Source: Alkaliphilus metalliredigens QYMF
GTDB lineage: Bacteria > Bacillota > Clostridia > Peptostreptococcales > Natronincolaceae
Assembly (NCBI RefSeq): GCF_000016985.1
Contig: NC_009633.1
Coordinates: forward strand, 3,515,539-3,579,538
Direction of reading: 5' to 3'
DNA length: 64,000 bases
In this document: positions 34,159 through 54,815 of the stretch, piece after piece
Position numbering within the stretch: the stretch's first letter is position 1
Layout: every line of letters begins with the position of its first letter
The notes under the pieces: model-generated
The model's database searches: none
What the model saw: the letters and a program-made list of their open reading frames with translations, nothing else
What the model was told of the DNA's origin: nothing
Made by a program: the position numbers and the translations under genes

Positions 34159-34180
34159 ATTTCTAATAATCCCCCCCATG

Positions 34181-35353: not shown

Positions 35354-35455
35354 TGTATCCCTCCTCCTATGTTCACGATATAAAGTTAAACCTTCTGATA
35401 GGCTAACCTTTGAATCAGTTGATATTAGTGAATAGAATTATATTGCAAAAGCATT

Positions 35456-36229: not shown

Positions 36230-36248
36230 TTTAGATCAAAACCTTTCT

Positions 36249-37823
36249 CTACATTTCTTTCCAATCTCGCACTTCCCATCCTGAATTCACGGGCTCGAGT
36301 ATGTGAGGGGGATAATGATAAAACATGCGTGGATCATGAACATATTGCTTGCCATAACCCCGAGTTCCCACACGAACAGCATAACGTTTATTTTGAGTCA
36401 TATTTCCCCACAAATAAATCGTATCTTTTCCTGCTCCTTGATCGTAATCTTCAAACCCAAAACCTTCATTTAATGCAAACATTGCCGCATGAATATGGAT
36501 ATTTGTGGGTGCCACATCATATGTCCTATTGTTACGTGACGTTCGACGCCAATTCTGAAAAGTTGACCACCAGCCCCAGCCAGTGGTTCTTTTTTCCCAC
36601 TGATAGTTCCAAAAATGGCCATTACCATCTGAACCATCCCGTGGCCAACCATAATGCATCACATAGACATTGTTATTTGCCACAAGTCCCAGCATATCCT
36701 TTCCTTCTCCTGTAATGGTTACTTCGCCCGTTGCGGGATTCAAGCTAAACTGTGTGTTTTGGTAATAAATACCACCGTTTACAGAGAATCCAGGGGGGGA
36801 TGGAGGCACTTCCGATTCGTTAGAATAATTTAACTCACCGCTATTCCAATCATGGTCGTCATAAAATTCTGTTGGATTGCTATGAGTGATATATATATTG
36901 TTTTTTGCCGCAATGGTTAACTCTCCTGATAATGTACCGGCTATAAATAGATTTCCAGTTTCAGGCTCCCACTTACCAACACCATCTCCACCGTCAATGT
37001 AAATAACACCATTAGGAGGTATGTCGATAACATCTTCTGTATAACCAGTTAACACATTAGACGCGTTGAATTCCGGATATTTTATTCGGATTTCATCCCC
37101 TTCTAGATGAACAGATGTACGTCCATAGTAGACTGCATCATCCAATTCAGCCCACTGTTTTAATTCTGCATTAGTTTCCTGCATTGTTAGTTCTTCAACT
37201 TTTTGAGGCACTCCCCTACGGTAGGTAGGGTTCCCAGTATTTATATAACCACTAACATACGTTACTGTGTTAAAAAACTCCGGATTATCCATTGTTCTCA
37301 AAATACCGTTAGTATGAACAGGACCGTAGAGTTTGTCTGATCTCCCAAAAGAAATATTAGTCCCTTCCGATTGACTAACATAGACTTGATGAACAAACTG
37401 TTTTTTCTGTAACTGAACCTCAATCGTTCTCTTTGTCTCTGGTGACTCCTTGGACCAACCAGTAGAGGTAATCGTAACATAGCGATCTAAATCTGATGGC
37501 CATGTGACCTCAAGTTGATAATATCCATTGTCATATTCAATCGGTATTCCCAACATGTCGTCACTTTCTTGGGTTAAGTAAAAGGTCACATGGTCATTGA
37601 GTTTCCATAAATATTTACTGTATCCAGCCTCTGCATATTGAAGGGCTTTTTCCTGTGCAATAAGACCTACTTTGGAGCCACTTTCTGTTGTACCAAGTGA
37701 ACCCGTTATTATTCCTTGGTTATCAACCAAAGAAAGAAGAGATACAGCAAAAATCATAACGACTAAAAATACAATCATCGTAAGCGGCAACATGAATCCA
37801 TTATTGTTTTTGAGTCTTTTCAT
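36249..37823 (-). CDS. Large PilX-like pilus accessory protein
   Basis: A 524-residue protein with NNNGFMLPLTMIVFLVVMIF near the start. This resembles a prepilin-type signal and helix, but with Leu-Pro in place of the usual T-L-x-E, as in PilX_N proteins. The rest is a large beta-rich exterior domain with YGPVHTNGILRTMDN and several GxIYY and WGNMTQNK-like segments. It resembles clostridial PilX/DUF4900-type proteins, but the family is not certain. The last 60 residues are rich in Trp, His and Tyr. It probably works at the pilus base or tip. Confidence 0.65.
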   Translation of the reverse strand: MKRLKNNNGFMLPLTMIVFLVVMIFAVSLLSLVDNQGIITGSLGTTESGSKVGLIAQEKALQYAEAGYSKYLWKLNDHVTFYLTQESDDMLGIPIEYDNGYYQLEVTWPSDLDRYVTITSTGWSKESPETKRTIEVQLQKKQFVHQVYVSQSEGTNISFGRSDKLYGPVHTNGILRTMDNPEFFNTVTYVSGYINTGNPTYRRGVPQKVEELTMQETNAELKQWAELDDAVYYGRTSVHLEGDEIRIKYPEFNASNVLTGYTEDVIDIPPNGVIYIDGGDGVGKWEPETGNLFIAGTLSGELTIAAKNNIYITHSNPTEFYDDHDWNSGELNYSNESEVPPSPPGFSVNGGIYYQNTQFSLNPATGEVTITGEGKDMLGLVANNNVYVMHYGWPRDGSDGNGHFWNYQWEKRTTGWGWWSTFQNWRRTSRNNRTYDVAPTNIHIHAAMFALNEGFGFEDYDQGAGKDTIYLWGNMTQNKRYAVRVGTRGYGKQYVHDPRMFYHYPPHILEPVNSGWEVRDWKEM

Positions 37824-37870
37824 ATAACCCCTCCTGACACCTATATACTTCTGTACTTCCTTTGCTTTAA

Positions 37871-38491
37871 TCAGTCTGCCTCTACCCGACTCCTTGACAT
37901 TAAAAATTTTTCGATTTCAAGGCTTCCCCCACGGATATCCAGACTATCTATGACAATCTTTAAACTTAACTTCCGTCTATAATCTGGGGGGCTATAGGTA
38001 TGTTCAGGTATTGTCACTTCCTCTGGTTCTGAAAAAATGTCATTATTTGAGATATTTATTATTAGTCTTCTTTCATTTCCGTAGCTACCGCTATATGTGT
38101 AGGGATACTCAGCATTTGAACTACTACGATAACTTCTTTTAAACACTCCCCCATCCACCAAGTATCTAATTTGCTCAGGCTTGCCATCTTGAGTAATATC
38201 TGTATAAATAATTAACTCTTGAGAGTTTATGCGAACAACTGGATCTTGATCGTCATTGGGCTTTCTAGCCTGTCTAACATCACGTTCAATTTGAGCGATA
38301 ACTAGTTGGATTTCCATGGCAACGAGACTATCTTCACTAATCTTCTCATAAGCAAACAAACCGAGAAACAATATATTATAAACAGCCATTAACACAATCA
38401 ACAAAAGAGCAATCACTAAAATGAGTTCTATTAATGTAAATCCTGATTTTTTGCGTATCCTATTCAATCCTTTGTAAGAGTGTAACGACAT
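37871..38491 (-). CDS. Minor pseudopilin, PilW/GspJ-like
   Basis: A 206-residue protein with a type III prepilin signal KKSGFTLIELILVIALLLIV, glutamate at position +5 after the Gly-Phe cleavage site, and a single membrane helix. The globular domain has YTDITQDGKPEQIRYLVDGG, a pattern of PilW/GspJ pseudopilins. PilD should cut before the Phe. It is in the minor-pilin set that primes pilus assembly. AGGTGA-type ribosome site. Confidence 0.82.
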   Translation of the reverse strand: MSLHSYKGLNRIRKKSGFTLIELILVIALLLIVLMAVYNILFLGLFAYEKISEDSLVAMEIQLVIAQIERDVRQARKPNDDQDPVVRINSQELIIYTDITQDGKPEQIRYLVDGGVFKRSYRSSSNAEYPYTYSGSYGNERRLIINISNNDIFSEPEEVTIPEHTYSPPDYRRKLSLKIVIDSLDIRGGSLEIEKFLMSRSRVEAD

Positions 38492-38548
38492 AAATAATCA
38501 CCTCTCAATAATGTCTTTTATCCCATGAAACTCTCTGGAACCATTTCG

Positions 38549-40273
38549 TCAATTTTCGTCAATTAACAAAATTCCATTTGTCATGCTATCCTCCATACGT
38601 GAATACCCCCAAAGCGGTACAGCTGATGTACTTTTCAGCGCATCATCAAAATCATCAGAATTGGGAATGTTAATATATAGCTGTCCACCTTTATTGTTAC
38701 TTGCATATTTGAACAGGTTAGAGAATTTATTGTTTTCTTTCTGATAACGTGTATCTACAATTGTGAGAATCATTTTTTGGGGATCATAACCATCACGTTC
38801 TATGCTATATCCAATCTTGTCAATGTTGGAATAGAGATGATCTGAAATAATGTTTTTCATTTCAGAATTATTTTGATTGAGTAGCGACTCTTTGCTTGCA
38901 AAATAATAAATCTGATCAGCATGAGAATCAAGTTCATACGTCCAGCGATTCTCAGCATCCACAAAATTATTGCTGCTAAATTGAATTGGGAGGGTTTTCT
39001 CTCTATCGAGATCACTTCCATCTAAAACAGCAGTAAAAGAGATTTCAATAACTACATAGCCTATTGAAAAATCAATTTCTTGGTCAGGATCATCAGGATC
39101 TTCGATAGTAATTTCACGGGTACCAAACTTAAACCCGCCTTCCTTTATTGACTTATCCACTTGCTCGTCAATAAAGTCAAACCCAAAGTGAAGCAAAACT
39201 CCCTTGATTGAAGGTGAATTATTTGGAGGAGTAAATTTACCCTCCCATTCAGACCATTCATCCTCGACCTCTTCTGCAATATAAAAGTTTTCGTTGCCTT
39301 TATTGATGGTGTATTCATAGGTCCAAACAGGCCAAAAGTTTAGCTTTTCTACATTGTTCAACGAAACTGTAATCGGGTGGATTCCTTCTATATCTCCTGT
39401 GTCTGACTCAATGGTAATATTAGTTGAATCAGGAAAACCGTCATCGTTATAAAAATCAAGGCGAGCAGGAGAATCGACAACAAAACTAATTTGATTAGGC
39501 ACTTCTGTAACTGTAAGGTGTTGAACCCAACGCTGATCAGTTGGTCCCGATACATTTTCAACATCATTTGGTCTTACCATAATTTCACCATAATCCCATA
39601 ATTTTGGAATAATAGTATATGTGTTTGTTGTACCTTGGGGTAAATTTGGAAAAATTGCCCTTCCATCATAGTCTGTAAAAGTGGATGCAAAAGCTGCACC
39701 CGACTTTTCAATAAGTACTCTCTGAGCTCGGTTCTCATCATCAAGAACTCGTTTATATGTAACCACACGAATACCTGGCAAAGTAGGACCTCCCTGTCCT
39801 TCAAATGTAAACATGGTACCAAGAAGCGAAAACTCCCTTTCAGTTTTAGTGAAGGGATTATAGGCATATACAACAATATCAGCCTTTTTACGGGCATCAT
39901 CTACCTGTCGTCCAGTTATACTAGTATCATCATCCCATGCTATTCTTGTTCGAACACGATACTCCATCCCATCAATTATGTACGGATCCGAATCAGGTCT
40001 ATTTTGAAATAAGTTCTCATCTACAATTCCATCAGGTGTATATCCCCCGACTAAACCAAGTTCATCCTCATAATCTAAAGTCCTTAACCATTCCAATTGA
40101 TTGCTGGCGATTTGAGCAGCAGACATTGATTGACGATGAAAAACACTGCTCTGTATTGCAAAGTTGAAAACTGGCAAAACTAAAATGGCAATGATCCCTA
40201 ACAATGCTAATGAGAAAATCACCTCCACCAGTGTAAACCCCTTATTATCATGTTCAGACACATTTCTATCCAT
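38549..40273 (-). CDS. Giant PilV-like minor pilin with possible adhesin domains
   Basis: A 574-residue prepilin-type protein, more than three times the normal size. NKGFTLVEVIFSLALLGIIA is the prepilin signal and helix (residues 10-35). NQLEWLRTLDYEDE is typical of PilV/GspI. Then comes a carboxypeptidase-regulatory-like segment (FTDYDGRAIFPNLPQGTT, about 200-240) and further beta-rich domains up to the end. Such tips can be adhesins. The ATG at 40271-40273 follows AGGAGG; the ORF extended to 40330 adds residues that do not fit a prepilin signal. Confidence 0.78.
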   Translation of the reverse strand: MDRNVSEHDNKGFTLVEVIFSLALLGIIAILVLPVFNFAIQSSVFHRQSMSAAQIASNQLEWLRTLDYEDELGLVGGYTPDGIVDENLFQNRPDSDPYIIDGMEYRVRTRIAWDDDTSITGRQVDDARKKADIVVYAYNPFTKTEREFSLLGTMFTFEGQGGPTLPGIRVVTYKRVLDDENRAQRVLIEKSGAAFASTFTDYDGRAIFPNLPQGTTNTYTIIPKLWDYGEIMVRPNDVENVSGPTDQRWVQHLTVTEVPNQISFVVDSPARLDFYNDDGFPDSTNITIESDTGDIEGIHPITVSLNNVEKLNFWPVWTYEYTINKGNENFYIAEEVEDEWSEWEGKFTPPNNSPSIKGVLLHFGFDFIDEQVDKSIKEGGFKFGTREITIEDPDDPDQEIDFSIGYVVIEISFTAVLDGSDLDREKTLPIQFSSNNFVDAENRWTYELDSHADQIYYFASKESLLNQNNSEMKNIISDHLYSNIDKIGYSIERDGYDPQKMILTIVDTRYQKENNKFSNLFKYASNNKGGQLYINIPNSDDFDDALKSTSAVPLWGYSRMEDSMTNGILLIDEN

Positions 40274-40355
40274 TTCTATTCCTCCTGATACCAGTATGAA
40301 ATTGGTAAAATAACAGTGTTGACACTGCACTATAATTCCTATAATTCAAGCACCT

Positions 40356-40410
40356 GGGAAAACTCTGAAAAACTTCTTGTTAGCTCTTTTCAATTTTTCA
40401 GAGCTTTCCC
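40356..40410 (-). other. Large hairpin between pilA and the PilV-like gene
   Basis: GGGAAAACTCTGAAAAA and TTTTTCAGAGCTTTCCC match at 16 of 17 positions around a 21-base loop. It lies about 80 bases before the PilV-like start. It may block read-through or protect the pilA end of a cut mRNA. Confidence 0.75.
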
Positions 40411-40430
40411 TGATACTAAGCTTGAATTTT

Positions 40431-40456
40431 AAAGGGACAAGTAATTTTGCCCCTTT
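40431..40456 (-). terminator. Second hairpin after pilA
   Basis: AAAGGGACAA and TTGCCCCTTT pair with one mismatch around a 6-base loop; on the minus strand the stem continues into TTTAAAATT. It is a plausible partial terminator that would give more pilA than downstream mRNA. Confidence 0.6.
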
Positions 40457-40471
40457 AAGATTCCATTTGAT

Positions 40472-40495
40472 AAGTTAAGTGCCTGGCACTACTCA
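40472..40495. repeat. Dispersed repeat, copy C
   Basis: AAGTTAAGTGCCTGGCACT contains the palindrome AGTGCC-T-GGCACT. It shares its first half with copy A (27065). Another CCTGGCACTA lies at 40604-40613. Confidence 0.55.
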
Positions 40496-40509
40496 CTCTT
40501 GAAATATGA

Positions 40510-40540
40510 AGGGTTTAAGGAATTATTTTTCTCAAACCCT
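40510..40540 (-). other. Third hairpin in the pilA 3' region
   Basis: AGGGTTT (40510-40516) and AAACCCT (40534-40540) pair perfectly around a 17-base loop, about 95 bases after the pilA stop. Confidence 0.45.
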
Positions 40541-40633
40541 CACCTGTGAATATTCATTTACAGTTATCATATTTATTTATTGCTTATAGTTTTTCGGAGG
40601 TTCCCTGGCACTAATCAGTCTCCTTCTCAGGCA

Positions 40634-40972
40634 CTATTCTATTAATCCAGGAGATACGACACCATTAACAATTGTGTAAGCATCGCCACCAGTAGGATTA
40701 GCAGGTACTGCTTGTAAATAGTCTGGCGTAAGTACATCAATATCGTCCATAGCATCTAATGCAGTATTTGTGTTAGCCATATAAACCGATACCGCACTTT
40801 CTATTGTTCTGACGTTTGCATTATGAGCTTTATTCTTTGCATTATCTTGAGTTGATGCAAACCTAGGCACAGCAATCCCAGCCAAAATCCCCAAAATAGC
40901 AATAACAACAATCAATTCAATCAATGTAAAACCCTTCTTATTTCTAATCTTCTTACTAAAAATTTGTATCAT
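40634..40972 (-). CDS. pilA: Major type IV pilin
   Basis: A 112-residue prepilin with leader IRNKKG, cleavage before FTLIELIVVIAILGILAGIA, glutamate at +5, and then a short globular domain of about 65 residues. This is small, as in Geobacter and some clostridial pilins. The end PANPTGGDAYTIVNGVVSPG is hydrophilic, with no disulfide pair. It has the strongest ribosome site of the operon (AAAGGGGG) and is followed by three hairpins, fitting high expression. Confidence 0.93.
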   Translation of the reverse strand: MIQIFSKKIRNKKGFTLIELIVVIAILGILAGIAVPRFASTQDNAKNKAHNANVRTIESAVSVYMANTNTALDAMDDIDVLTPDYLQAVPANPTGGDAYTIVNGVVSPGLIE

Positions 40973-41008
40973 TTCTTCTTCCCCCTTTAATTTTTCATAA
41001 TGTTTTAT

Positions 41009-42226
41009 TTAGCCAATGGTCTGCATCATGTCAAACATCGGCATCATCATTGCAATGACAATAAATCCAATAATCACAGCCATCACCACAATCATCAACG
41101 GTTCAAGCATGGAAACCATTTGTTGAATAGCTGCTTCTAGTTCCTCATCATAAAAATCTGCTGTTTTTGAAAGCATATCATCCAGAGAACCTGATTCTTC
41201 TCCAATACTCACCATGGAGACCATCATTGGTGGAAATACATTCATTTTCTTGAACAATACGGCTAAGCTTACCCCCTTTCGAATATCATCTACCACCATT
41301 TCAATGCCATCAGACACGACTTTGTTGTTGGTTACATTGGCTGAGGCTTCTAGTGCAGAAATGATGGGAATTCCACTGGTTAGTAAAGTGGAGAGTGTTC
41401 TAGTAAATCTTGCAGTAACTATTTTGGTAATAGAGCCCTTCACTATAGGAATTCTAAACTTCAATCGATCATAGGCTCTTTTACCATCATCTGTACTGAG
41501 CATTCTATTCAATAGAACGACAATACCAGAAATACCAATAACAAATAGATACCAAAACCTTGTAAGTACATTACTAAGGGCAAGTAGTATTCTTGTAGGT
41601 AAAGGTAGCTGAACCCCTGAAGATGTAAACATAGTCAAAAACGTTGGCATAATAAATACCAGGAGAAAAATAACGACAAGGATGGCTACGATGCTTAGAA
41701 TAAGTGGATAGATCATGGCACCCTTTATTTTTGAGTTGATTTTATTCTCCTTTTCAAAATGCACACTCATTTTTTCTAAAACATCGTCTAATGTTCCTGT
41801 CATTTCGCCAGCTTCTACCATGTTAAGTAAAATTGGTGGAAACACTTTCTTGTGTTTTTTCATAGCATCTGACAGTATATCGCCTTTTTGAACTTGGGTA
41901 AAAAGATCTTCAATTACAGCCTTCAATGTTTTGTTTTCAGTCTGATCCATCAACACCTCTAGGCTACTGGTTAATGACATCCCTGCATTCAACATGGTAT
42001 AGAATTGCTTGCAAAAAACTGTGAGATCCTTGGTTTTTACTTTTTGTTTAAAAAGGTTAAGGTCTTTTACCTCTTTTGATTTGTCCTTAGTTTCTTCTAC
42101 CTTGACAGGAATCTGCTGTTTTTGGCGAATCATTCGGATCACTTCATTTTTTGATTCTGCAGTAAATGTTCCCTCTACACTCCCCCCTTCACTAGTAACT
42201 GACTTATATTTAAAGGTACTCGCCAA
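41009..42226 (-). CDS. pilC: PilC, inner-membrane platform protein
   Basis: A 405-residue member of the GspF/PilC family with two homologous halves of about 120 residues, each ending in membrane helices (about 170-195, 220-240 and 375-400). Family landmarks are FCKQFYTMLNAGMSL in the first half, FTRTLSTLLTSGIPI in the second, and MVEAGEMTGTLDDVLEK with MVSIGEESGSLDDMLSK in corresponding positions. It connects the PilB/PilT motors to pilin polymerisation. It precedes pilA. Confidence 0.95.
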   Translation of the reverse strand: MASTFKYKSVTSEGGSVEGTFTAESKNEVIRMIRQKQQIPVKVEETKDKSKEVKDLNLFKQKVKTKDLTVFCKQFYTMLNAGMSLTSSLEVLMDQTENKTLKAVIEDLFTQVQKGDILSDAMKKHKKVFPPILLNMVEAGEMTGTLDDVLEKMSVHFEKENKINSKIKGAMIYPLILSIVAILVVIFLLVFIMPTFLTMFTSSGVQLPLPTRILLALSNVLTRFWYLFVIGISGIVVLLNRMLSTDDGKRAYDRLKFRIPIVKGSITKIVTARFTRTLSTLLTSGIPIISALEASANVTNNKVVSDGIEMVVDDIRKGVSLAVLFKKMNVFPPMMVSMVSIGEESGSLDDMLSKTADFYDEELEAAIQQMVSMLEPLMIVVMAVIIGFIVIAMMMPMFDMMQTIG

Positions 42227-42268
42227 TGAATCACCACCTTTCCTTATCTTTAATATTAAGGTTATCCT

Positions 42269-43324
42269 TTAAATACCTAATTGACGGTTGACCATATCTA
42301 AGTCTACTGCATGCTTTTGTAGGGCTTCTCTAGTAATTATTCCTTTATGATACAGTTCCATTAATGAAGCATCCATTGTCTTCATTCCTAGCTTTGATTT
42401 TGTCTGAATCACAGTTTGCATCTGGTGGGTTTTTCCTTCTCGAATTAAGTTTCTTATGGCAGGATTGCTAACCATGACTTCAAAAGCTGCAACTCTTCCA
42501 GATTCATCTGCTTTTGGTAGGAGCTGTTGGGAAATCACCCCTTCCATTACAGATGACAGTTGCACTTTAATCTGCTGCTGTTGATGGGGAGGAAATACGT
42601 CGATGATTCTGTCTATTGTTTTAGCAGCACCGATTGTATGTAAAGTGGATAATACTAAATGTCCAGTTTCCGCAGCGGTAATGGCAATGGCAATGGTCTC
42701 TAAATCCCTCATCTCTCCCACTAAAACAACGTCTGGATCTTGCCTTAGTGCTGCTCTTAATGCATTAGAAAAGCTGTAAGAGTCATTTCCTATTTCTCTT
42801 TGATTGACAATACTCTTGTTATGCTTATGTAAATACTCAATGGGGTCTTCAAGGGTTAAAATATGTTCACTTCTATTTTCATTCATATAGTTAATCATCG
42901 CTGCCAAGGTCGTGGACTTTCCACTACCTGTTGGACCTGTCACTAATATCAGTCCTCGTTTTTTCTTCGACAGTTCCGTTATTATCGGAGGTAGATCCAG
43001 TTCCTCCATTGTTGGTATTATCAAAGACACAACACGAAGTGCCATAGAATAGCTTCCTCTTTGTTTATATGCATTGACTCTAAACCTACCTAAACCTGGA
43101 TTTGAATATGAAAAATCAAGTTCACCTTTTTCATGAAAGAGGATTATCTGCTCTGGGCTCATCATCTTCTCTACGATTCTTTTAGTATCTTCTGGCATCA
43201 GTTTAACTTCTCCCATTTTAACTAATTTGCCATTGATTCTAACAATAGGTGGCGAAGCTACTGTAATATGTAGATCTGAAGCTTTTGCTTCTACTGTTTT
43301 AGTTAATAGCTCTAATATATCCAA
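42269..43324 (-). CDS. pilT: PilT, pilus retraction ATPase
   Basis: A 351-residue hexameric secretion ATPase. The N-terminal PAS-like part starts MDILELLTKTVEAKASDLHI. Walker A is VTGPTGSGKSTTLAAM (about 130), the Asp box is ALRQDPDVVLVGEMRD, and the His box is AAETGHLVLSTLHT. It lacks the tetracysteine zinc motif of PilB, which identifies it as PilT. It drives pilus depolymerisation and hence twitching. It follows pilB by 32 bases. Confidence 0.95.
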   Translation of the reverse strand: MDILELLTKTVEAKASDLHITVASPPIVRINGKLVKMGEVKLMPEDTKRIVEKMMSPEQIILFHEKGELDFSYSNPGLGRFRVNAYKQRGSYSMALRVVSLIIPTMEELDLPPIITELSKKKRGLILVTGPTGSGKSTTLAAMINYMNENRSEHILTLEDPIEYLHKHNKSIVNQREIGNDSYSFSNALRAALRQDPDVVLVGEMRDLETIAIAITAAETGHLVLSTLHTIGAAKTIDRIIDVFPPHQQQQIKVQLSSVMEGVISQQLLPKADESGRVAAFEVMVSNPAIRNLIREGKTHQMQTVIQTKSKLGMKTMDASLMELYHKGIITREALQKHAVDLDMVNRQLGI

Positions 43325-43356
43325 GATTGTTCACCTCATTTAAAATTTGTATTTTT

Positions 43357-45042
43357 CTATATGTCGATGCCATAGGTTATTTTTAATAACTCATCAATGG
43401 TAGTTGTCCCATTGATGACAAGCAATTTACAGGACTCATGAAGTGTTTGCATACCATTTTTTATGGCGTTATCCTTAATGACATCAATGTCAGCCCTATG
43501 ATTGATTAAATTGCGAATTTCTCTATTCACTGCCATAACCTCATGGATGGCAGTTCTTCCTGAGTAGCCTGTATTTCCACAGGAGTTGCACCCCTTCCCT
43601 TTAAATAAATTTAGAGGTTCATTTATACCTAGTAACTTTTTATCCTTGTCAGTAGCTTCATACTGTATTTTACAATGTGGGCAAATTTTCTTTATCAATC
43701 GTTGAGCAATTATTCCTACAACAGCAGATGAAACCATGTAGGGTTCAATTCCCATATCAATTAATCTAGAAATGGAGCTTGCCGTATCATTGGTATGTAA
43801 AGTACTTAAAACCAAATGCCCTGTAATCGCAGCTCTAGTAGCAATTTGTGCAGTTTCAGCATCTCTTATTTCACCTACCAATACAATGTCAGGGTCCTGT
43901 CTCAGTATTGAGCGAAGGCCTGTTACAAATGTTAAACCTGCCTTTATATTTACCTGAACTTGATTAATGCCATCAAGTCTGTACTCCACAGGATCTTCTA
44001 CAGTAATGATATTTTTATTTATTTGGTTCAGATCCTTTAATACCGTATAGAGGGTTGTGGTTTTGCCACTTCCAGTTGGCCCTGTCACTAGAATAATCCC
44101 CTCTGGGCTTTTAATAATTCTATCAAATAATTCCAGGTTTCTTTCAGTAAAACCTAGCTGTTCTTTTGTTACGATAATATTGTTTCTATCTAATATTCTG
44201 ATCACTACCTTTTCTCCATATACAGTTGGTAGCACTGATATTCTCATGTCTATCGTTCTATTTTCAATAATAGTCTCTACTCTGCCATCCTGAGGAATTC
44301 TTTTTTCTGATATGTCTAATTTACCTATGATTTTTATTCTTGTGATAATTGCCGAGTGTGTAGATTTTGCAGGAGACATAATCTCCTTTAGTTCTCCATC
44401 AATCCGAACACGAATTCTTACTCTTTCCTCAAATGGCTCAATATGAACATCACTGGCTCCTAGTTTCACCGCTTGGCTAATAACTTGATTAACGAGTCTT
44501 ACCATGGGTGCATTATTAACATCCTCCATTAACTGACTATCAGACTCATCTATATCTTCTAACTCATGTTGCGTTTTAAACTCTTCAACGGCTTTATCCG
44601 CATACTCCTTACCATCATAATATTTATTGACAGCATTTAATATCTCCTTTTTCGTAGCAATGACTACTTCAATGTCAATTCCCGTAATGATCTTCACGTC
44701 ATCTATAGCAATCAAGTTTAAAGGGTCTGCCATGGCAACCATAAGCTTACCTCTAGTCATACTGATTGGAATCAAATTATGTTTTCTAGCAATATTTTCA
44801 TTAATCATCTTAACTGCCTTAGGATTAATATGATATTTATTTAAATCAATATGTGGTATGCCCAATTGAAATTCTAAAACCTCTAGAATCTGACTTTCTT
44901 TTAAAATCCCTTCATCAACGATAAGCTCTCCTAATTTTTTTCCCTTTATTTTTTGAAGCTTCAGTATCTCATTAAGTTGATCTTTTGTTATCAAACCTCC
45001 TTCAATCAGGATGTCCCCTAAACGCATATTTTTTTGCATCAT
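43357..45042 (-). CDS. pilB: PilB, pilus extension ATPase
   Basis: A 561-residue hexameric ATPase. Residues 1-150 are a GspE-N domain (MRLGDILIEGGLITKDQL). Walker A is LVTGPTGSGKTTTLYTVL, the Asp box LRQDPDIVLVGEIRD and the His box AAITGHLVLSTLHTNDT. The C-terminal tetracysteine KKICPHCKIQY with CNSCGNTGYSGR binds zinc, as in PilB. First gene of the pilus operon, downstream of a leader with a terminator. CTGAGGAG precedes the ATG. It powers pilin polymerisation. Confidence 0.96.
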   Translation of the reverse strand: MMQKNMRLGDILIEGGLITKDQLNEILKLQKIKGKKLGELIVDEGILKESQILEVLEFQLGIPHIDLNKYHINPKAVKMINENIARKHNLIPISMTRGKLMVAMADPLNLIAIDDVKIITGIDIEVVIATKKEILNAVNKYYDGKEYADKAVEEFKTQHELEDIDESDSQLMEDVNNAPMVRLVNQVISQAVKLGASDVHIEPFEERVRIRVRIDGELKEIMSPAKSTHSAIITRIKIIGKLDISEKRIPQDGRVETIIENRTIDMRISVLPTVYGEKVVIRILDRNNIIVTKEQLGFTERNLELFDRIIKSPEGIILVTGPTGSGKTTTLYTVLKDLNQINKNIITVEDPVEYRLDGINQVQVNIKAGLTFVTGLRSILRQDPDIVLVGEIRDAETAQIATRAAITGHLVLSTLHTNDTASSISRLIDMGIEPYMVSSAVVGIIAQRLIKKICPHCKIQYEATDKDKKLLGINEPLNLFKGKGCNSCGNTGYSGRTAIHEVMAVNREIRNLINHRADIDVIKDNAIKNGMQTLHESCKLLVINGTTTIDELLKITYGIDI

Positions 45043-48094: not shown

Positions 48095-49411
48095 TTAAAT
48101 AATATTTGGTGTAATTTTTCGCTTTATTTGATATCGATAAAACAAATTCACCATTACGTAAAAAAAAGCGCGATCCATTCTCTTGAAGAACCCTTTTTGC
48201 CATAGGGTTCTTTTTACGATGGATTTGTAAGAAAAAACCTCATTGTATAGCTCCCAATAGGCTGTAGTCAGCTCTTGGGGTGTCATGTTTTGTGGAATAT
48301 GAACTGCTTCACTTCCATTATAGGAATATATGTCCTCTTTATAAATTCGCCCGGCAGACTTCATTTCATCAAAATATTTAGTTCCAGGGATGGGGGTCAG
48401 GATATAAAACCTAGGTACCACAATTTTATTGTCCTCAATAAATTGGGCTGTGGCGGCAATGGACCCTAGGGTATCTCCATCTGCCCCTACTACCATTTCC
48501 GTTGAGACATCGATGCCTGCCTCTTGAATGGTCTTAATGAGATGAGGATAATGGCTTGGATTGGCCCAGGATTTATCCATATCGTTCAGGCTTTCCTGGG
48601 TGATACTCTCTAGACCAAAGCTCAAGGCAATACAACCACTATCGGCCACAGCTTTCAGTAGCTCAAGATCCTCTCCAATGGTAATGGCGCATTGGGAAAT
48701 CCACTTCATCTTAAGCTTTTTAATTTCACCACAAAGGGTCATGAGGTAATCCCGGTCTGCAATAATGTTATCATCTAAAAGCAAGAACTTTTTAAAACCT
48801 AATTCTTTTATCTGAGCAATATCCCGTAGCACATCTGGTATGGCCCTTTTCAAGTACTTGTTTTTATATAAGCAATGAACAGAGCAAAAGCTACAGCTGT
48901 TGGGACAGCCTCTTCCGGCTTGCACTGGCAGAAAATCCCCAATGTTTTTCCCCATGATTAAATCAAATCGAGGCAGGGGTGTGGACAACTCATTTAATTC
49001 TTCTTTATAAAAATCCTTCAATTGGCCACTTTCATAATCCTCCAGTAGCTGACCCCAGACTCCTTCTGCATCTCCAATCACGACACTATCGCAATATTTT
49101 TTCGCTTCTTCCCCCATGAGGCTGGCCATATAGCCTCCCATGATGACGGTTTTACCCCTCTTTTTAAATTCAGTGGCAATGTCTATGGATCGAATAATGG
49201 CATGACCCATACTACCAATGGCAACCACATCTGCATCGCTTTCAAAGGGGATCTCCTCTATGGTCTCTAAAACAATTTCCACCTGCCAATCCTCTGGTGT
49301 CAGGGCTGCCAGTAGGGGGAGTCCTAATCCTACGAAGTACAGTTTATTCTTTTTAATGGGTCGTCTTTGGGAGTCATAGGGGGTGGATTGAATTAACAAT
49401 AGTTTTTTCAT
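48095..49411 (-). CDS. B12-binding radical SAM enzyme
   Basis: A 438-residue protein. The N-terminal part (about 1-140) is a Rossmann-like cobalamin-binding domain (VVAIGSMGHAIIRS, VIMGGYMAS). The radical SAM domain has AGRGCPNSCSFCSV, with the CxxxCxxC that binds the 4Fe-4S cluster, LLLDDNIIADRDYL, and LSFGLESITQESL. A C-terminal region after 360 is of class B (BchE-like) type. Typical reactions are methylation of unreactive carbons or ring chemistry. It is the last of six overlapping genes, starting 1 base after the previous one. Substrate unknown. Confidence 0.88.
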   Translation of the reverse strand: MKKLLLIQSTPYDSQRRPIKKNKLYFVGLGLPLLAALTPEDWQVEIVLETIEEIPFESDADVVAIGSMGHAIIRSIDIATEFKKRGKTVIMGGYMASLMGEEAKKYCDSVVIGDAEGVWGQLLEDYESGQLKDFYKEELNELSTPLPRFDLIMGKNIGDFLPVQAGRGCPNSCSFCSVHCLYKNKYLKRAIPDVLRDIAQIKELGFKKFLLLDDNIIADRDYLMTLCGEIKKLKMKWISQCAITIGEDLELLKAVADSGCIALSFGLESITQESLNDMDKSWANPSHYPHLIKTIQEAGIDVSTEMVVGADGDTLGSIAATAQFIEDNKIVVPRFYILTPIPGTKYFDEMKSAGRIYKEDIYSYNGSEAVHIPQNMTPQELTTAYWELYNEVFSYKSIVKRTLWQKGFFKRMDRAFFYVMVNLFYRYQIKRKITPNII

Positions 49412-49412
49412 A

Positions 49413-50762
49413 TTATTTACCCCTTACTATCTTTCCGATATATTGTTGGGTGACCCGACTACTGCCTATGGAGAGCTTTAGGACATCCTTAAACCCATAT
49501 TTTCTAATTAATTTTACAACACTTTTGGGATCCATGGTGATTTTGTAATACAGTTTGATCATTTCAAAATAATAGCGTCGTACTGACATTTTTGTTGGAG
49601 CCAGCACCAAATGGGCTAAATCCCATTTCTCATATTCCTGCTTTTGGATGATAAAATGTTTTTCATAGGATTCATAGATTTCTGTTCCTGGTAACGGGGT
49701 CAAGGGCTGTAGGTTCACAAATGTGAGATCTAACTTTTTAATCCAGCCATAGAGATCTTTAAAGTCCTCTTTAGAAAAATCCATGTCTAATATAAAGGTG
49801 CCATAGATCTCGATATCATGCCTTTTCAGAATTTTCACAGCCTCTTCATTTTCTATGATATTTGTACCCTTATTGTATTTATCTAAATCTGCTTTTTTGA
49901 AGGATTCTAATCCCACAATGACAGCCCTAAGGCCGGCTTCTTTAAATGTTTTCATCACCGATTCATTTTTGTATATAAAATCTGCCCTACCATAGACCAG
50001 GAAGCGTTTGTGAATATTCTCCTCCTGTAGTCTTTGACAAAACTCCAATATCCGTTGGCTTGAGAATAAAAAGTCGTCATCTACAATGTATATTTCCTGT
50101 TCAGGAATCCCCTTAAGCTCTTGGATGACAGAATCAATACTTCTTGTGTAATATTTTCCGTCGGTGATTTCCTTGCAAAAGCAAAAGCTACAATTGTAAG
50201 GGCATCCAAATGATGTCTTAATTAGACTACAGGGATTATGAAACATATAGTAATATTGATTTCGATATTTTGCTACTTTGTTTCTAGCGGGAAATTTGTA
50301 GGAAAATGTGGTCTCCTTTACATTTGTTTTACCTGGTTGATAGGTCCCCTGGATGTCCTTTTCCCCCGGATGATTGATGATCTGGTTAAATGTTTTAATG
50401 GGATTTGCCTCTACGATATAATCAATAAAGTCACTGACAAAATCCTGGGGTACCACCTCTGCATGGACGCCACCCACCACCACTGTTGTATCGGGTTTAA
50501 TTTTTTTAATCCTTTCTCCATAACCCTTGATGACTTCCACATGGGTTATATAGCCACTCAAACCTACAATATTCGGCTGATGCTTTTGGATAAAGTACTC
50601 CAATGGCTTTTTCTCTAAAATCATATCTATAATTTCAACACTTGCCTCTTTGTCCTCGATGTTGGCAGCGATATATTCCAGCTCTAGGGGCTCACAGATC
50701 ATCACATGCTGTAGCCCAATTGTTTCTTTATGTGGTTTAGGTCTAATCAATAAAATTTTCAT
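49413..50762 (-). CDS. B12-binding radical SAM enzyme
   Basis: A 449-residue protein with a cobalamin-binding N-terminus (MKILLIRPKPHKETIG, VVVGGVHAEVVPQDF) and a radical SAM core KTSFGCPYNCSFCFCKE, where CxxxCxxC is followed by an extra CK, then YIVDDDFLFSSQR and VIVGLESFKKADL. It shares the FCxCK pattern and VVGGVHAE segment with the 51416 gene, so the two are paralogues. Start at 50762, 7 bases after AAAGGAG, overlaps the methyltransferase gene by 20 bases. Specific reaction unknown. Confidence 0.88.
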   Translation of the reverse strand: MKILLIRPKPHKETIGLQHVMICEPLELEYIAANIEDKEASVEIIDMILEKKPLEYFIQKHQPNIVGLSGYITHVEVIKGYGERIKKIKPDTTVVVGGVHAEVVPQDFVSDFIDYIVEANPIKTFNQIINHPGEKDIQGTYQPGKTNVKETTFSYKFPARNKVAKYRNQYYYMFHNPCSLIKTSFGCPYNCSFCFCKEITDGKYYTRSIDSVIQELKGIPEQEIYIVDDDFLFSSQRILEFCQRLQEENIHKRFLVYGRADFIYKNESVMKTFKEAGLRAVIVGLESFKKADLDKYNKGTNIIENEEAVKILKRHDIEIYGTFILDMDFSKEDFKDLYGWIKKLDLTFVNLQPLTPLPGTEIYESYEKHFIIQKQEYEKWDLAHLVLAPTKMSVRRYYFEMIKLYYKITMDPKSVVKLIRKYGFKDVLKLSIGSSRVTQQYIGKIVRGK

Positions 50763-51423
50763 GATTTTCTCCTTTGTCCTGTCTTTCTTCACTTTCTACT
50801 TTCAATACAAAAAAGATAATAGAAGGCATAAAAAATCCCTTCTTTATCTTCATCATGTCCAACACTTGAAAAAGTCCCTGGGCCATGTTTACAATGGCTT
50901 CTACACTTGGGTAATGAGCCCTTCCCACCGTCAGCTTCACAAAGGACATGACCACTTGATCATATAAATTATTTTGGGAGGCCTGGGCAAGGAGTAGATG
51001 TCCATTGGTTTTTAAGTTCTCTTTAAATAATTCAAGAACAGCCCTTTGATCCTCATAATAAGGAAATGAATGGCTACAAATGATAATGTCAAATTGGCCT
51101 TCTAGTGAGGTGAGCTCCTTGACATTTAATTGCTCATACTCAATACTTCCTCCCATTTCCTTGGCTCTTTTTATCATGTTTTGAGAAAAATCAATACCGG
51201 ATAATTGTAAATCATAATCATCCCTTGAAAAGGTCTTAGCCATTTCCCTAAGGAGTTCTCCTGTGCCACAGCCTACATCTACAATACGATATGTCTTACC
51301 CTTCTCTAAAAGCCCCTCTAGATACAGAAGTATTTTCTCTCTTGTGGGTGCCAGTGAGTTTTTCTGTACCCATAGGCCTTCGTAATGCTGGGCCCAAAAG
51401 TCCCATATTTTTTGATTATTCAT
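50743..51423 (-). CDS. Class I SAM-dependent methyltransferase
   Basis: A 226-residue soluble enzyme. Motif I is IVDVGCGTGELLREM (about 45-60), post-I SGIDFSQNMIKRAKE, and motif IV-like DIIICSHSFPYYED. The C-terminal region has a hydrophobic patch (GFFMPSIIFFVLKVESE) that may contact membrane or a lipid substrate. It overlaps its neighbours by 20 bases downstream and 8 bases upstream, hence translational coupling. It may methylate a carboxyl, hydroxyl or amine on the cluster's product. Confidence 0.88.
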   Translation of the reverse strand: MNNQKIWDFWAQHYEGLWVQKNSLAPTREKILLYLEGLLEKGKTYRIVDVGCGTGELLREMAKTFSRDDYDLQLSGIDFSQNMIKRAKEMGGSIEYEQLNVKELTSLEGQFDIIICSHSFPYYEDQRAVLELFKENLKTNGHLLLAQASQNNLYDQVVMSFVKLTVGRAHYPSVEAIVNMAQGLFQVLDMMKIKKGFFMPSIIFFVLKVESEERQDKGENHENFID

Positions 51424-52741
51424 GATAGCCTCCAGGTTTTAGAATGTGTTTCAGGTTTTTAAATAGATATTGTCTCACGGATTTGCTTTGGAAAAACAGT
51501 TGTCCATAAATCAAATAGAATTGAATATAAAAAGAAAACTTCGACATGTAGTAGGGTTTCATTGTTAAATGTAGAAAATCAAATTTACTAAAATCAGTCT
51601 CCTGAATTTTCTCTTCATAATCACCGTAGCCCTGGGTCCCCTTCATGGGAGTAAAGATGGAGACCGTAAAGCTTTGCAATTTTCTCCTTCGTATCCAGTG
51701 ACGCATTTTTTTGAAATCCCCTACTTTGAAGTCAATTCCAACAATAAATAAAGCCGTTAGTTTAATGTCATATTTTTTTAAAAGTGTTACAGTGCGACTG
51801 TTTTCATCAACAGTGGCTGCTTTATTGAAGTCCTTCAACATACTGTCATCCACGGCCTCCATGCCGATGATCAACTCTATGAATCCAATTTCCTTCAACT
51901 GTTGAAGGATGTCCTCATTGTTGACCACAAAATCCACCCTAGAATAGGCAATGAATTTTTTTCTGATCCCGCTTATTTTAATTGCCTCTATAAATTGTCG
52001 TGTTCGCTGTCTATCTAGTAAAAAACTATCATCCACAATCCAGATATACGGAGCTCCAATGCCACTTATTTCTTCTACAACTTCATTGATTTCCCTTGTG
52101 GCATACAATCCTGTATTTAAGAGCTTGCAGTAGCAAAAATGACAGCCGTGGGGGCAGGATAGGGCTGTCTTGACAATGGCCACAGGACTGTAGGACATAT
52201 ATTTTGTTCGATGCTGATGTTTTTCAAAATAATCTCTATTGGGAAGGGGCATTTGGGTCAATGCCGTGGGGACACTTTCATTGACAGTCCATTGGTCACC
52301 ATGCCGAAGGGCGATTCCCTTTAGGCCTCTCATGATTTCTAGGTGAAAGTCATGCTGTAGTAATTCATTTAATGTCGAGAGTCCGTTGGAATGAACAATG
52401 ATATCGATGGTATCCACAAAGAAGTCCTCATAATTGATCTCCGCATGGACGCCCCCCACAATGACCTTTATCTGCCTGTGACTTTTTTTTGCATATTGAG
52501 AATAGGCTATGATTTTGCCCACGGCGGTGATATATCCCGTCAGTAACAGTACATCAGGTTCATAGGCCTCAAATACTGCTCTAAATGATCCTTTCTCTAA
52601 AAGGCCGTCATAAACCCTATGTTGTATTTCTAAGTTTTCAAGTAATGCCGATAAATACTCTAGTTCTAAGGGCTCTGTCACAATGGGCTCTATTTTCGAA
52701 AAAATAGTTTTTTTATGACATTTTACCAGTAGGATCTTCAT
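51416..52741 (-). CDS. B12-binding radical SAM enzyme
   Basis: A 441-residue protein with N-terminal B12-binding features (VLLTGYITAVGKIIAYS, VIVGGVHAEINYEDF) and a radical SAM core KTALSCPHGCHFCYCKLL, then YIWIVDDSFLLDR, VEEISGIG and LIIGMEAVDDSML. Paralogue of the 49413 gene. The start at 52741 sits 5 bases after a GGGGGAG run. It overlaps the FemAB-like gene by 29 bases. A C-terminal membrane-binding region, SVRQYLFKNLKHIL, is similar in the paralogue. Confidence 0.88.
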   Translation of the reverse strand: MKILLVKCHKKTIFSKIEPIVTEPLELEYLSALLENLEIQHRVYDGLLEKGSFRAVFEAYEPDVLLLTGYITAVGKIIAYSQYAKKSHRQIKVIVGGVHAEINYEDFFVDTIDIIVHSNGLSTLNELLQHDFHLEIMRGLKGIALRHGDQWTVNESVPTALTQMPLPNRDYFEKHQHRTKYMSYSPVAIVKTALSCPHGCHFCYCKLLNTGLYATREINEVVEEISGIGAPYIWIVDDSFLLDRQRTRQFIEAIKISGIRKKFIAYSRVDFVVNNEDILQQLKEIGFIELIIGMEAVDDSMLKDFNKAATVDENSRTVTLLKKYDIKLTALFIVGIDFKVGDFKKMRHWIRRRKLQSFTVSIFTPMKGTQGYGDYEEKIQETDFSKFDFLHLTMKPYYMSKFSFYIQFYLIYGQLFFQSKSVRQYLFKNLKHILKPGGYHE

Positions 52742-53723
52742 GATTCTCCCCCTTGAAAATATGATGGGTAACCCGATACTGTCCATAGGAGAACTTAGGT
52801 GCCAGCCTATGGAGTATCCTTTTCACAACAGGATTGTGATGATGTAAATACATTCTTTTTTCATGGGGTATGGCGCCAATTTTTGTTTTGGTTTCCTCCG
52901 CGGTTTGTCCAAAATCAATAGATTGGAAGCCATTTTTTATGCCATAATCCACGATATACAGTAACATATTCATATACAAGTCATATTTGTGATTTAGAGA
53001 ATGCTTAAATCCACCAAAAATAAATAAAAGAGACTCCTGCCGAACCACCAATTGCACAAAACCTATGGTCTCTTCATTGGCTGTAAATGTAATTATTTTC
53101 GATGGAAAGTCTCTAAAAAATTCAATGGGTAGCTTTTCTAGTTTCTCTTTCGAGTTTTCATATACCGCCTCATATAGACTGTATAGCTCTTCATCAAAGA
53201 GACTCTGATCCTCTAATTCTGCTACTACAACAGTCTCAAAACGCTTCATGGCCTTTTTAATTCGATATCGATAATGGCTCCTCATGTCAAGGAGATATTC
53301 ATGAAATGTGCTCCATTTTATCTGCATTTGATAGGTAGGAAGGGTGTGGCCCTTTGGGAATTTAAAATGATCCTGGGAATTGAGCATAATATAAAAACCC
53401 CTGAGGGTGGTGATATATTGAACTAAGTCCTCCCTATGGCCTTCCTCTTTAATGGCATAACCACAGCTTGAGACCGACATGGGAACACCAATCATATTCA
53501 CAGGGATCCTCCAAGATAAGCGCCTGGAAAATGTAAATAAATCCAGCTTTAGTTCATAGGACACCAAGGCCATGCCCTTTTCCTTGTTAAAATGATAAAG
53601 CTGCTTACAAGGATTAACCTCCTGAAGACATTTTAGGACACTTCTTTTTAAAAAAGGATGATCCCCCACGACTTCATCCCATGATGCTGGTAAATCCTCC
53701 ACCCGATGATAGATATGAAACAT
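52713..53723 (-). CDS. GNAT/FemAB-like acyltransferase
   Basis: A 336-residue protein with the double GNAT-like pattern of FemAB/peptidogalycan-type enzymes: FHEYLLDMRSHYRYRIKKAMK near residue 145, KIITFTANEETIGFVQLVV, and the C-terminal LYMNMLLYIVDYGIKNGFQS with IDFGQTAEETKTKIGA. Such enzymes transfer amino acids or acyl groups to amines. No membrane helix is seen, but the N-terminus has patches that could bind membrane. Stop overlaps the start of the next gene. Second gene of the operon. Confidence 0.72.
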   Translation of the reverse strand: MFHIYHRVEDLPASWDEVVGDHPFLKRSVLKCLQEVNPCKQLYHFNKEKGMALVSYELKLDLFTFSRRLSWRIPVNMIGVPMSVSSCGYAIKEEGHREDLVQYITTLRGFYIMLNSQDHFKFPKGHTLPTYQMQIKWSTFHEYLLDMRSHYRYRIKKAMKRFETVVVAELEDQSLFDEELYSLYEAVYENSKEKLEKLPIEFFRDFPSKIITFTANEETIGFVQLVVRQESLLFIFGGFKHSLNHKYDLYMNMLLYIVDYGIKNGFQSIDFGQTAEETKTKIGAIPHEKRMYLHHHNPVVKRILHRLAPKFSYGQYRVTHHIFKGENHEDPTGKMS

Positions 53724-53738
53724 ATGCCTCTTCCCCTT

Positions 53739-54815
53739 TTACAAATTGATAACAAATGCTTTATAGTGCTTATGAACCTGATCGCCCCATCGAAGCCCCA
53801 GTCCTGTGGAGGCATAATTCTCCTCTAGGATCCATCCCGACTCGCAGAGTTCATATCGATCCTTTACAATTTCCCAGCATCCATGAAAGAGGGCCACAAC
53901 GGCTCCATTTCTTTGAAAGCCAGGCAATATCCCTATTTCTACAATCTTGAACTTTTTAATTTTATGGGAAAATAATTTGTTTTTAATCACAGTCTTTACA
54001 CCCAGTTGCTCTCCTGGTTTCATCAGTTCATTAAAATCAGGATACCAAAGCATAAACCCAATGGGTGTCCCTTTGTATTCAATGAAAAGCAGGTTTTCTT
54101 CCTTGAGTAATATTTTGAACTCATTTAAAAGCTCTAAATCTTCCTGTATTCTTCTTTCATAGTAAAACTTATGATTGATAAAGGCCTTGTTGTTCAGATG
54201 GGTATAAATGGCTGCGTCCTTCTCAATATTCTTAAAATCCGCAGCTCTCACCCTATATTTTTCCTTCACCCGTTGAATGAGTCTAGGACTCATACCAAAA
54301 TCAAATTCTTTCATCTTGGTCAAGTAACTGGCAAGATTGATTTCTTCGTGGGCATATTCTTTGAAATAGTCAATATAATAGGGAGGATTGTAGGCACTAC
54401 CAAAACTGTAGGGCTCATGAAAGCCATCTACCAGCAACCCCAGTCCATAATTTACATGAAGGTTTAGTCCTACCAGTATCTTCTTAATACCATGCTCCTT
54501 GGCTAGATTTTTTCCATAGGCCATCATCATTTTGATGGCCGGTTCTTGATGGGCTAATGCTTCAAAATAAGCCAGCTGAAGGGTATCCTTCATTCGATCT
54601 ACAATTGCAAATGTGCATACGGCTACAATACTACCTCTGTCCATCACCATGATGGGTCTCAGGACAGTCCCATTACATATTTCTGCCCTTCCCATCAGAA
54701 TTCCTTTCATAGAGGTGCTCAGGATATCTCGGTATTCATTATTATTTTTATAGACCTCCTTACAAAAGCCTATATATTCCTTGACGTAGGCATGATCAAC
54801 CACTTTAATTTCCAT
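53739..54815 (-). CDS. GNAT-like N-acyltransferase
   Basis: A 358-residue protein. The first half has ILMGRAEICN and IKMMMAYGKNLAKEHGIKKILVGLNLHVNYGLGLL. The second half has LFIEYKGTPIGFMLWYPDFN, then IVEIGILPGFQRNGAVVALFHGCWE, where the GILPGFQRNG segment is a GNAT-like acetyl/acyl-CoA-binding loop. It resembles the YghO-type acyltransferases. It probably attaches an acyl or amino-acyl group at an early step. First gene of the six-gene operon; GAGGTGA precedes the ATG. Confidence 0.7.
   Translation of the reverse strand: MEIKVVDHAYVKEYIGFCKEVYKNNNEYRDILSTSMKGILMGRAEICNGTVLRPIMVMDRGSIVAVCTFAIVDRMKDTLQLAYFEALAHQEPAIKMMMAYGKNLAKEHGIKKILVGLNLHVNYGLGLLVDGFHEPYSFGSAYNPPYYIDYFKEYAHEEINLASYLTKMKEFDFGMSPRLIQRVKEKYRVRAADFKNIEKDAAIYTHLNNKAFINHKFYYERRIQEDLELLNEFKILLKEENLLFIEYKGTPIGFMLWYPDFNELMKPGEQLGVKTVIKNKLFSHKIKKFKIVEIGILPGFQRNGAVVALFHGCWEIVKDRYELCESGWILEENYASTGLGLRWGDQVHKHYKAFVINL

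Follow-up and report, generated by a model that had tools for sequence, protein, structure and literature searches.

A modular cassette of GNAT-type transferases and B12-type radical SAM enzymes conserved in Bacillota, possibly for an acylated amine or aminoacyl lipid

A 64,000-nucleotide stretch of the Alkaliphilus metalliredigens QYMF genome (NC_009633.1, positions 3,515,539 to 3,579,538; hereafter the window) carries six tightly packed open reading frames (ORFs), all on the minus strand, at 48095 to 54815. They encode two GNAT-type transferases (GNAT1 and GNAT2), three radical S-adenosylmethionine (SAM) enzymes (rSAM1 to rSAM3) and a methyltransferase (MT). We found that these genes recur together at 44 loci, the window's included, and that the full set holds seven genes: GNAT1, GNAT2, rSAM1, MT, rSAM2, rSAM3 and a fourth radical SAM enzyme, rSAM4. 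We put at about even the chance that the window's six genes belong to a seven-gene, modular biosynthetic cassette for an acylated amine or aminoacyl lipid modified by B12 radical chemistry. The cassette is real and widespread and apparently uncharacterised; we found no description of this gene set in the open-access literature, subscription papers lying mostly outside the coverage of that search. Its concentration of B12 radical enzymes (up to four) is unusual, and the cassette contains neither an assembly-line gene nor a shared peptide precursor.

The six genes of the window are transcribed in the order GNAT1, GNAT2, rSAM1, MT, rSAM2, rSAM3. With the start codons chosen here, which for rSAM1 (ATG at 52741) and rSAM2 (ATG at 50762) are in each case the second in-frame ATG, neighbouring genes overlap by 29, 8 and 20 bases or are separated by 1 and 15 bases, exactly the one-direction operon layout described in an earlier note made from the sequence of the window. 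That note proposed to look for the six genes together across clostridia and named a lack of co-occurrence elsewhere as an outcome that would speak against it. The gene set proved strongly conserved across clostridia and reached beyond the window's class; recurring at 44 loci, it is not a matter of chance. The six genes do recur together; the proposal missed rSAM4, the seventh. Among 158 neighbouring gene pairs from the first 29 loci, 85% overlapped or lay no more than 60 bp apart.

The 44 loci were collected from searches of the window's order, class and phylum and of the orders of two distant carriers, together with loci from a genome collection, one named record from a plasmid collection and the window itself; outside Bacillota, sampling consisted of the plasmid search and the genome-collection scan. 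A GNAT2 search of 148 genomes of the order gave 20 matches, an rSAM3 search of 391 genomes of the class gave 13, and an rSAM3 profile search of 398 genomes of the phylum gave 8 clear ones, which included the window's own genome and scored 700 to 838 bits, against 323 for the next genome. Searching the orders to which the distant carriers belong gave matches in 2 of 10 genomes for one and 8 of 73 for the other. The cassette is distributed patchily over many Bacillota families. The GNAT2 scan of the genome collection yielded three named loci, from a Bacillota metagenome-assembled genome (MAG), Geosporobacter ferrireducens and a Tissierellales MAG. Gene order was kept in all three, with rSAM4 after rSAM3 in two and the third contig ending after rSAM2. 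Before counting, we dropped L106 (same contig as L009), G121 (same record as L010), L049 (no cassette) and the contig fragments G375 and G494, the former with rSAM3, GNAT1 and GNAT2 on one contig.

Over the 44 loci, GNAT2, rSAM2 and rSAM3 were each found at 43, GNAT1 at 42, rSAM1 at 40, MT at 36 and rSAM4 at 28, the last figure including a displaced copy in the window's genome. Several misses are contig ends, with the contig-cut loci L011, L122, L123 and L127 lowering the counts, and a joined rSAM2-rSAM3 frame at L041 was counted as rSAM3 only. Not every locus counts as independent, L111 and L112 being almost identical and L043 and L105 having flanks in common. The flanks were compared at 35 of the 44 loci, before L122 to L128 were added and apart from the window; since its flanks are those of L105, L043 was excluded from the analyses of flanks, tree and small ORFs, and L112 was excluded from the last of these. 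Only two clusters among the 358 flanking ORFs, one ABC-ATPase-like (7 loci) and one chemoreceptor-like (6 loci), touched more than three loci. Since flanking families rarely recur, the cassette behaves as a unit in changing surroundings.

The genes also keep company genome by genome. Among the 148 genomes of the order, rSAM3 (E 1e-100 or better) was present in 19 and GNAT2 (E 0.001) in 20, with 19 common to both; the 20th GNAT2 genome had a 46-residue match with a stop. Nine of 245 genomes of the class carried GNAT2, and high-scoring GNAT1 (315 to 560 bits) was found in those nine, all of which are among the 13 rSAM3 carriers from the 391 class genomes. Another 25 of the 245 had distant GNAT1 relatives only, at 103 bits or less; read in eight regions, these relatives stood among differing neighbours and led nowhere. 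Pairwise distances among the seven families were correlated (r 0.65 to 0.92), common species ancestry contributing to this.

Of the seven proteins rSAM3 is conserved most (50 to 80% identity between the window's protein and 26 others), and it serves best as a marker of the cassette. Outside the window's class, in families f129, f138 and f182, it is 76 to 78% identical to the window's copy, against 59 to 65% at seven loci of the same order, a pattern that suggests transfer of the cassette between lineages. Spread by plasmids was considered and set aside, as 72,556 plasmid records held one orthologue (62.6%) and eight further records had relatives at 30 to 35%. The record with that orthologue, L105 (NZ_CP154629.1, 2.63 Mb), is listed as an Acetoanaerobium noterae plasmid, has the full seven-gene set and looks like a chromosome.

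The smallest version of the cassette, GNAT1-GNAT2-rSAM2-rSAM3, was found at L066 and L128, with unrelated genes on both sides. rSAM1, rSAM4 and MT vary and behave as add-ons. Such a compact four-gene core makes the product tractable to find. Short rSAM4 remnants lie between rSAM2 and rSAM3 at L110 (10500-10800) and L123 (4700-4960), and at L034 (7327-7875) rSAM4 is reduced to a frame of 182 residues; from these decayed or truncated copies, rSAM4 is sometimes lost.

At four loci (L110, L111, L112 and L123, from two genera in two families), the cassette encloses a FeeM-type N-acyl amino acid synthase and a phosphatidylserine decarboxylase, called by Pfam at L110 and L111 and by similarity at L112 and L123, where a contig end cuts the decarboxylase. 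We checked eight genomes, seven from the two families with this variant plus the window's own: the four variant genomes each had two decarboxylase matches and one FeeM, and the other four had one decarboxylase and no FeeM. An rSAM3 orthologue was not found in the three relatives with one decarboxylase and no FeeM. FeeM systems are thus represented in four related cassettes by a gene above the Pfam cut-off, in contrast to the window's genome, which has no FeeM, and a FeeM cluster accompanied by radical SAM enzymes in this way is not known to us. In that variant at least, the two added genes speak for chemistry on acyl amines or lipids. In the same surroundings, an acyl-CoA ligase gene lies about 600 bp upstream of GNAT1 at L111 and L112.

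All three radical enzymes of the window have PF04055 (Radical_SAM), and rSAM1 and rSAM2 also have PF02310 (B12-binding) by Pfam. In rSAM3 of the window, only PF04055 is above cut-off; PF02310 was matched at E 0.01 in 24 of 27 aligned rSAM3 proteins, the window's copy being among the three misses, and we call rSAM3 B12-type because of these 24 family members. The earlier claim of three cobalamin-binding radical SAM enzymes therefore holds at family level, with the window's rSAM3 alone below the PF02310 threshold. The N-terminal domain of rSAM3 aligned weakly by hhalign with those of rSAM2, rSAM1 and rSAM4 (probability 27, 32 and 75). The three cysteines of CxxxCxxC are kept in at least 95% of the 19, 29, 29 and 34 aligned sequences of the four radical SAM families, rSAM2 having an extra cysteine, C196, and the FCxCK pattern noted earlier in two paralogues is present in rSAM1 and rSAM2 of the window. 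Relatives of the three enzymes in the PDB, by sequence, are remote. In a quick tree of 110 rows, rSAM1 (44 rows), rSAM2 (40 rows) and rSAM4 each formed one side of a branch, with Shimodaira-Hasegawa-like approximate likelihood ratio test (SH-aLRT) values of 99, 98 and 100, respectively; the tree took only ORFs of 380 to 560 residues, and HpnR and BchE were not among its rows. Analysis A5 was made without the rSAM3 frames of L041 and L048 (>480 residues).

Two irregular rSAM3 frames were observed. At L041 (14592-17354), rSAM2 and rSAM3 share one frame of 920 residues, a possible natural fusion, which, if natural, would suggest that the two enzymes work together. At L112 (7850-9082), rSAM3 is shortened to 410 aa, has stops inside the match and may be broken or mis-sequenced.

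GNAT2 of the window matches PF13480 at E 1.4e-7, and this family was found in 25 of 30 aligned GNAT2 members and PF04339 in 3 of the 30; the FemAB family of Pfam, which we take to be PF02388, gave no match at E 0.01 among them. GNAT1 of the window matches PF00583 at E 0.026, below cut-off, and 22 of 30 aligned GNAT1 proteins, not including the window's copy, match it at E 0.01 or better. Of the earlier assignments, that of two GNAT/FemAB-type proteins has PF13480 behind GNAT2 and PF00583, at family level, behind GNAT1; that of a SAM methyltransferase is clear from Pfam. NCBIfam returned nothing for GNAT1 or GNAT2.

We compared AlphaFold models of both proteins, built on four sequences, with known folds. 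In the GNAT2 model (predicted local distance difference test, pLDDT, 58.2), residues ~126-277 matched FemX best (Z 14.3, root-mean-square deviation 3.0, 143 aligned residues), followed by the streptothricin enzymes Sba18/Sbb17 (Z 13.4 to 13.7), MprF/A-PGS (Z 12.5 to 12.9), and FemA and ATE1 (Z 12.4). The first 19 matches were aminoacyl-tRNA-dependent enzymes or their putative relatives, and other acetyltransferases came at 12.2 and below. With low confidence, the model suggests that the catalytic part of GNAT2 resembles aminoacyl-tRNA-dependent transferases, lipid-aminoacylating MprF/A-PGS included. FemX/FemA, MprF/A-PGS and Sba18/Sbb17 are its best matches, at Z 12.4 to 14.3 over 130 to 143 residues; GNAT2 shares only 10 to 15% identity with them, over residues ~126-277 only, and its Pfam family is PF13480. 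The GNAT1 model (pLDDT 51.7) matched the tandem GNAT of the clavulanic-acid pathway (2wpw/2wpx) and the glucosamine N-acetyltransferase 5kf1 across both halves. By sequence, phmmer with GNAT1 gave no PDB relative up to E 5, and the GNAT1 family profile matched other GNATs over no more than a short stretch, with E values of 0.016 or weaker, along with two unrelated weak matches.

Taking the gene content and these folds together, we propose that GNAT2 would form an amide or ester bond between an acceptor with an amine or hydroxyl group, probably a lipid, and an aminoacyl or acyl group whose most likely donor is aminoacyl-tRNA, and that GNAT1 would N-acylate an amine with an acyl-CoA. Together the two would most likely yield a scaffold containing an amide. 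By B12 radical chemistry, rSAM2 and rSAM3 would act on unactivated carbons, either methylating them or forming a C-C bond or ring, and rSAM1, rSAM4 and MT would provide further, optional modifications. The product would be an acylated amine or aminoacyl lipid. The N-acylation of an amine or amino acid proposed in the earlier note gains independent support from the FeeM and phosphatidylserine decarboxylase genes of four cassettes and from the FemX-like fold of the low-confidence GNAT2 model. More specifically, and only tentatively, the products may be radical-modified aminoacyl or N-acyl membrane lipids, loaded in the manner of FemX or MprF, in which up to four radical SAM enzymes methylate, cyclise or cross-link unactivated chain carbons, with the whole cassette passing horizontally from one family or class to another. 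If the product is a lipid, bacterial membranes would gain a new chemical class, and B12 radical chemistry a new use.

Several points weigh against this proposal. Both models are of low confidence (pLDDT 51.7 for GNAT1 and 58.2 for GNAT2), the lead of GNAT2 matches over ordinary acetyltransferases is small at the boundary (Z 12.4 vs 12.2), and a GNAT fold in common is no proof that GNAT2 uses aminoacyl-tRNA. The remaining 40 of the 44 loci, some of them contig-cut, showed neither FeeM nor the decarboxylase in the stretches retrieved, and the link to lipids may therefore hold for a single variant. A pyruvoyl decarboxylase requires a free amine on its substrate, and the variant decarboxylase must therefore act before that amine is acylated. 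The link to the acyl-CoA ligase is weak because of its distance and, at L111, an intervening small ORF of cold-shock type. No conserved carrier-protein gene was seen among the flanks of the 35 loci. Neither a B12 riboswitch nor a T-box leads the cassette in the window stretch or at 37 other loci, a scan that left out L011, L043, L123 and L125 to L127; T-boxes at L010 and L034, considered as cassette control, precede a gene on the opposite strand, and most other RNA matches fall in neighbouring genes. As for the radical steps, PMC13331322 describes B12 radical SAM enzymes that form rings, contract rings or make thioethers, others methylating, and among the non-methylating, ring-forming ones it includes BchE. 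Because some B12 radical SAM enzymes do other chemistry, methylation by those of the cassette is not assured.

The alternative that survives best, which we nevertheless rate as rather unlikely, is a secreted, water-soluble natural product of the peptidyl-amine type, in which GNAT2 would add an amino acid from aminoacyl-tRNA to a small amine, GNAT1 would acetylate, and the radical SAM enzymes and MT would tailor the product. The peptidyl-amine logic of blasticidin or streptothricin is the model for it, and the streptothricin synthases Sba18/Sbb17 among the top structural neighbours of GNAT2 fit, as does the patchy, modular distribution with optional tailoring genes. Genes reading like ABC (ATP-binding cassette) exporters are found beside the displaced rSAM4, upstream of GNAT1 at L124 and downstream of the cassette at L111 and L112, but they are not consistently linked, the one ABC-ATPase-like BLAST cluster lying within 9 kb, on either strand, at 7 of 35 loci. 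No candidate resistance or scaffold gene family recurs widely in the flanks, and FeeM with the decarboxylase indicates lipids in the variant that holds them.

The displaced rSAM4 lies outside the window, at bases 634291-635649 of the same genome. It is 70% identical to the Geosporobacter copy and groups with the operonic rSAM4 of a genome of the same family (SH-aLRT 99, quick tree). In this region (L075:3793-10153; own genome C1:629292-635652), rSAM4 follows by 57 bp an exporter-like operon of a TetR regulator, an ABC ATPase, a permease and a membrane-fusion protein, named by reading, which is possibly tied to the pathway. Similar exporter-like genes stand directly upstream of GNAT1 at L124.

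Modification of a protein or peptide, either a host protein or one resembling a ribosomally synthesized and post-translationally modified peptide (RiPP), appears improbable. The radical SAM enzymes would methylate residues and the GNATs would acylate lysines or N-termini, and B12 radical SAM enzymes do modify proteins and RiPPs in other systems. NCBIfam gave weak, superfamily-level matches to RiPP families; the RiPP radical SAM methyltransferase model TIGR03975, however, scored only 24.7 to 33.6 bits against a cut-off of 281.85. We compared 1129 small ORFs from 42 loci, lying in gaps or no more than 1 kb away; none was common to more than two loci, in agreement with the earlier remark that no peptide precursor is visible, a sharing test that a fast-evolving precursor could escape. 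The flanks likewise offer no recurrent family in more than three loci apart from the ABC-ATPase-like and chemoreceptor-like ones. That no nonribosomal peptide synthetase or polyketide synthase (PKS) is visible was also upheld across loci, there being no ORF of assembly-line size between core genes, where not every inserted ORF was scanned. At L033 (1-7711), the cassette is followed directly by two downstream ORFs, each about 1280 aa long; a scan of one of them showed AMP-ligase, carrier and ketosynthase (PKS) domains.

A cofactor or tetrapyrrole pathway with BchE-like oxidative cyclisation is very improbable. The nearest NCBIfam models for rSAM1 and rSAM2 are HpnR and BchE, over about 400 residues and with the same domain order, B12-binding then radical SAM; the scores, however, are far below the cut-offs (HpnR TIGR04367, 176.6 bits for rSAM2 and 139.9 for rSAM1 against 650; BchE TIGR02026, 120.0 and 131.4 bits against 481.35), setting the cassette enzymes apart from that group, at 120-177 bits against cut-offs of 481-650. 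A gene content this variable, with single genes present at anything from 28 to 43 of the 44 loci, is not usual in cofactor pathways, and the GNATs, FeeM and phosphatidylserine decarboxylase do not fit. Least probable of all is a phosphonate or phosphinate pathway with PhpK-like P-methylation, as the P-methyltransferase model TIGR04479, the best NCBIfam match of rSAM3, scores 85.4 bits, far below its cut-off of 600, and inspection of the recurring flanking families by eye showed no phosphonate gene, phosphoenolpyruvate mutase not being searched for.

Table 1. Genes of the cassette in the window
Gene	Product	Position	Strand	Basis
GNAT1	tandem-GNAT-like N-acyltransferase (putative), 358 aa	53739..54815	-	ORF, family Pfam, fold match
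GNAT2	FemX/FemAB-like transferase (putative), 336 aa	52713..53723	-	PF13480, fold match
rSAM1	B12-binding radical SAM enzyme, 441 aa	51416..52741	-	PF02310 + PF04055, tree
MT	SAM-dependent methyltransferase, 226 aa	50743..51423	-	PF13847/PF13649
rSAM2	B12-binding radical SAM enzyme, 449 aa, minimal-core gene	49413..50762	-	PF02310 + PF04055, tree
rSAM3	B12-type radical SAM enzyme, 438 aa	48095..49411	-	PF04055; family PF02310

Around the cassette of the window, named by reading the sequence, a divergent aminotransferase-like gene lies 513 bp upstream and a PAS-GGDEF-HD-type gene lies 121 bp downstream on the same strand. A pattern scan of the window revealed no terminator-like site in the gap downstream of rSAM3. 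The scan gave 3 terminator-like sites, including a minus-strand site within rSAM3, against 6.4 expected in shuffles, and 41 promoter-like sites, on both strands and inside genes, against 26.0 expected (standard deviation 5.9). With fewer terminator-like and more promoter-like sites than shuffles, it decides nothing. Beyond the PAS-GGDEF-HD gene, at 33595-45042, minus-strand genes read like type IV pilus or type II secretion.

A few other loci show further elements. At L037 (7639-9642), a gene of 667 aa on the opposite strand between GNAT2 and rSAM1 clusters with the chemoreceptor-like ORFs. Beside or inside the cassette at L063 (7765-9152) and L068 (12284-13680), in two genomes of a single family, an RT-5 RNA (Rfam) accompanies an ORF of 405 to 448 aa, probably a reverse transcriptase element. 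At L108 (5987-6143), a TwoAYGGAY RNA match (Rfam) lies on the opposite strand in the gap between rSAM1 and MT.

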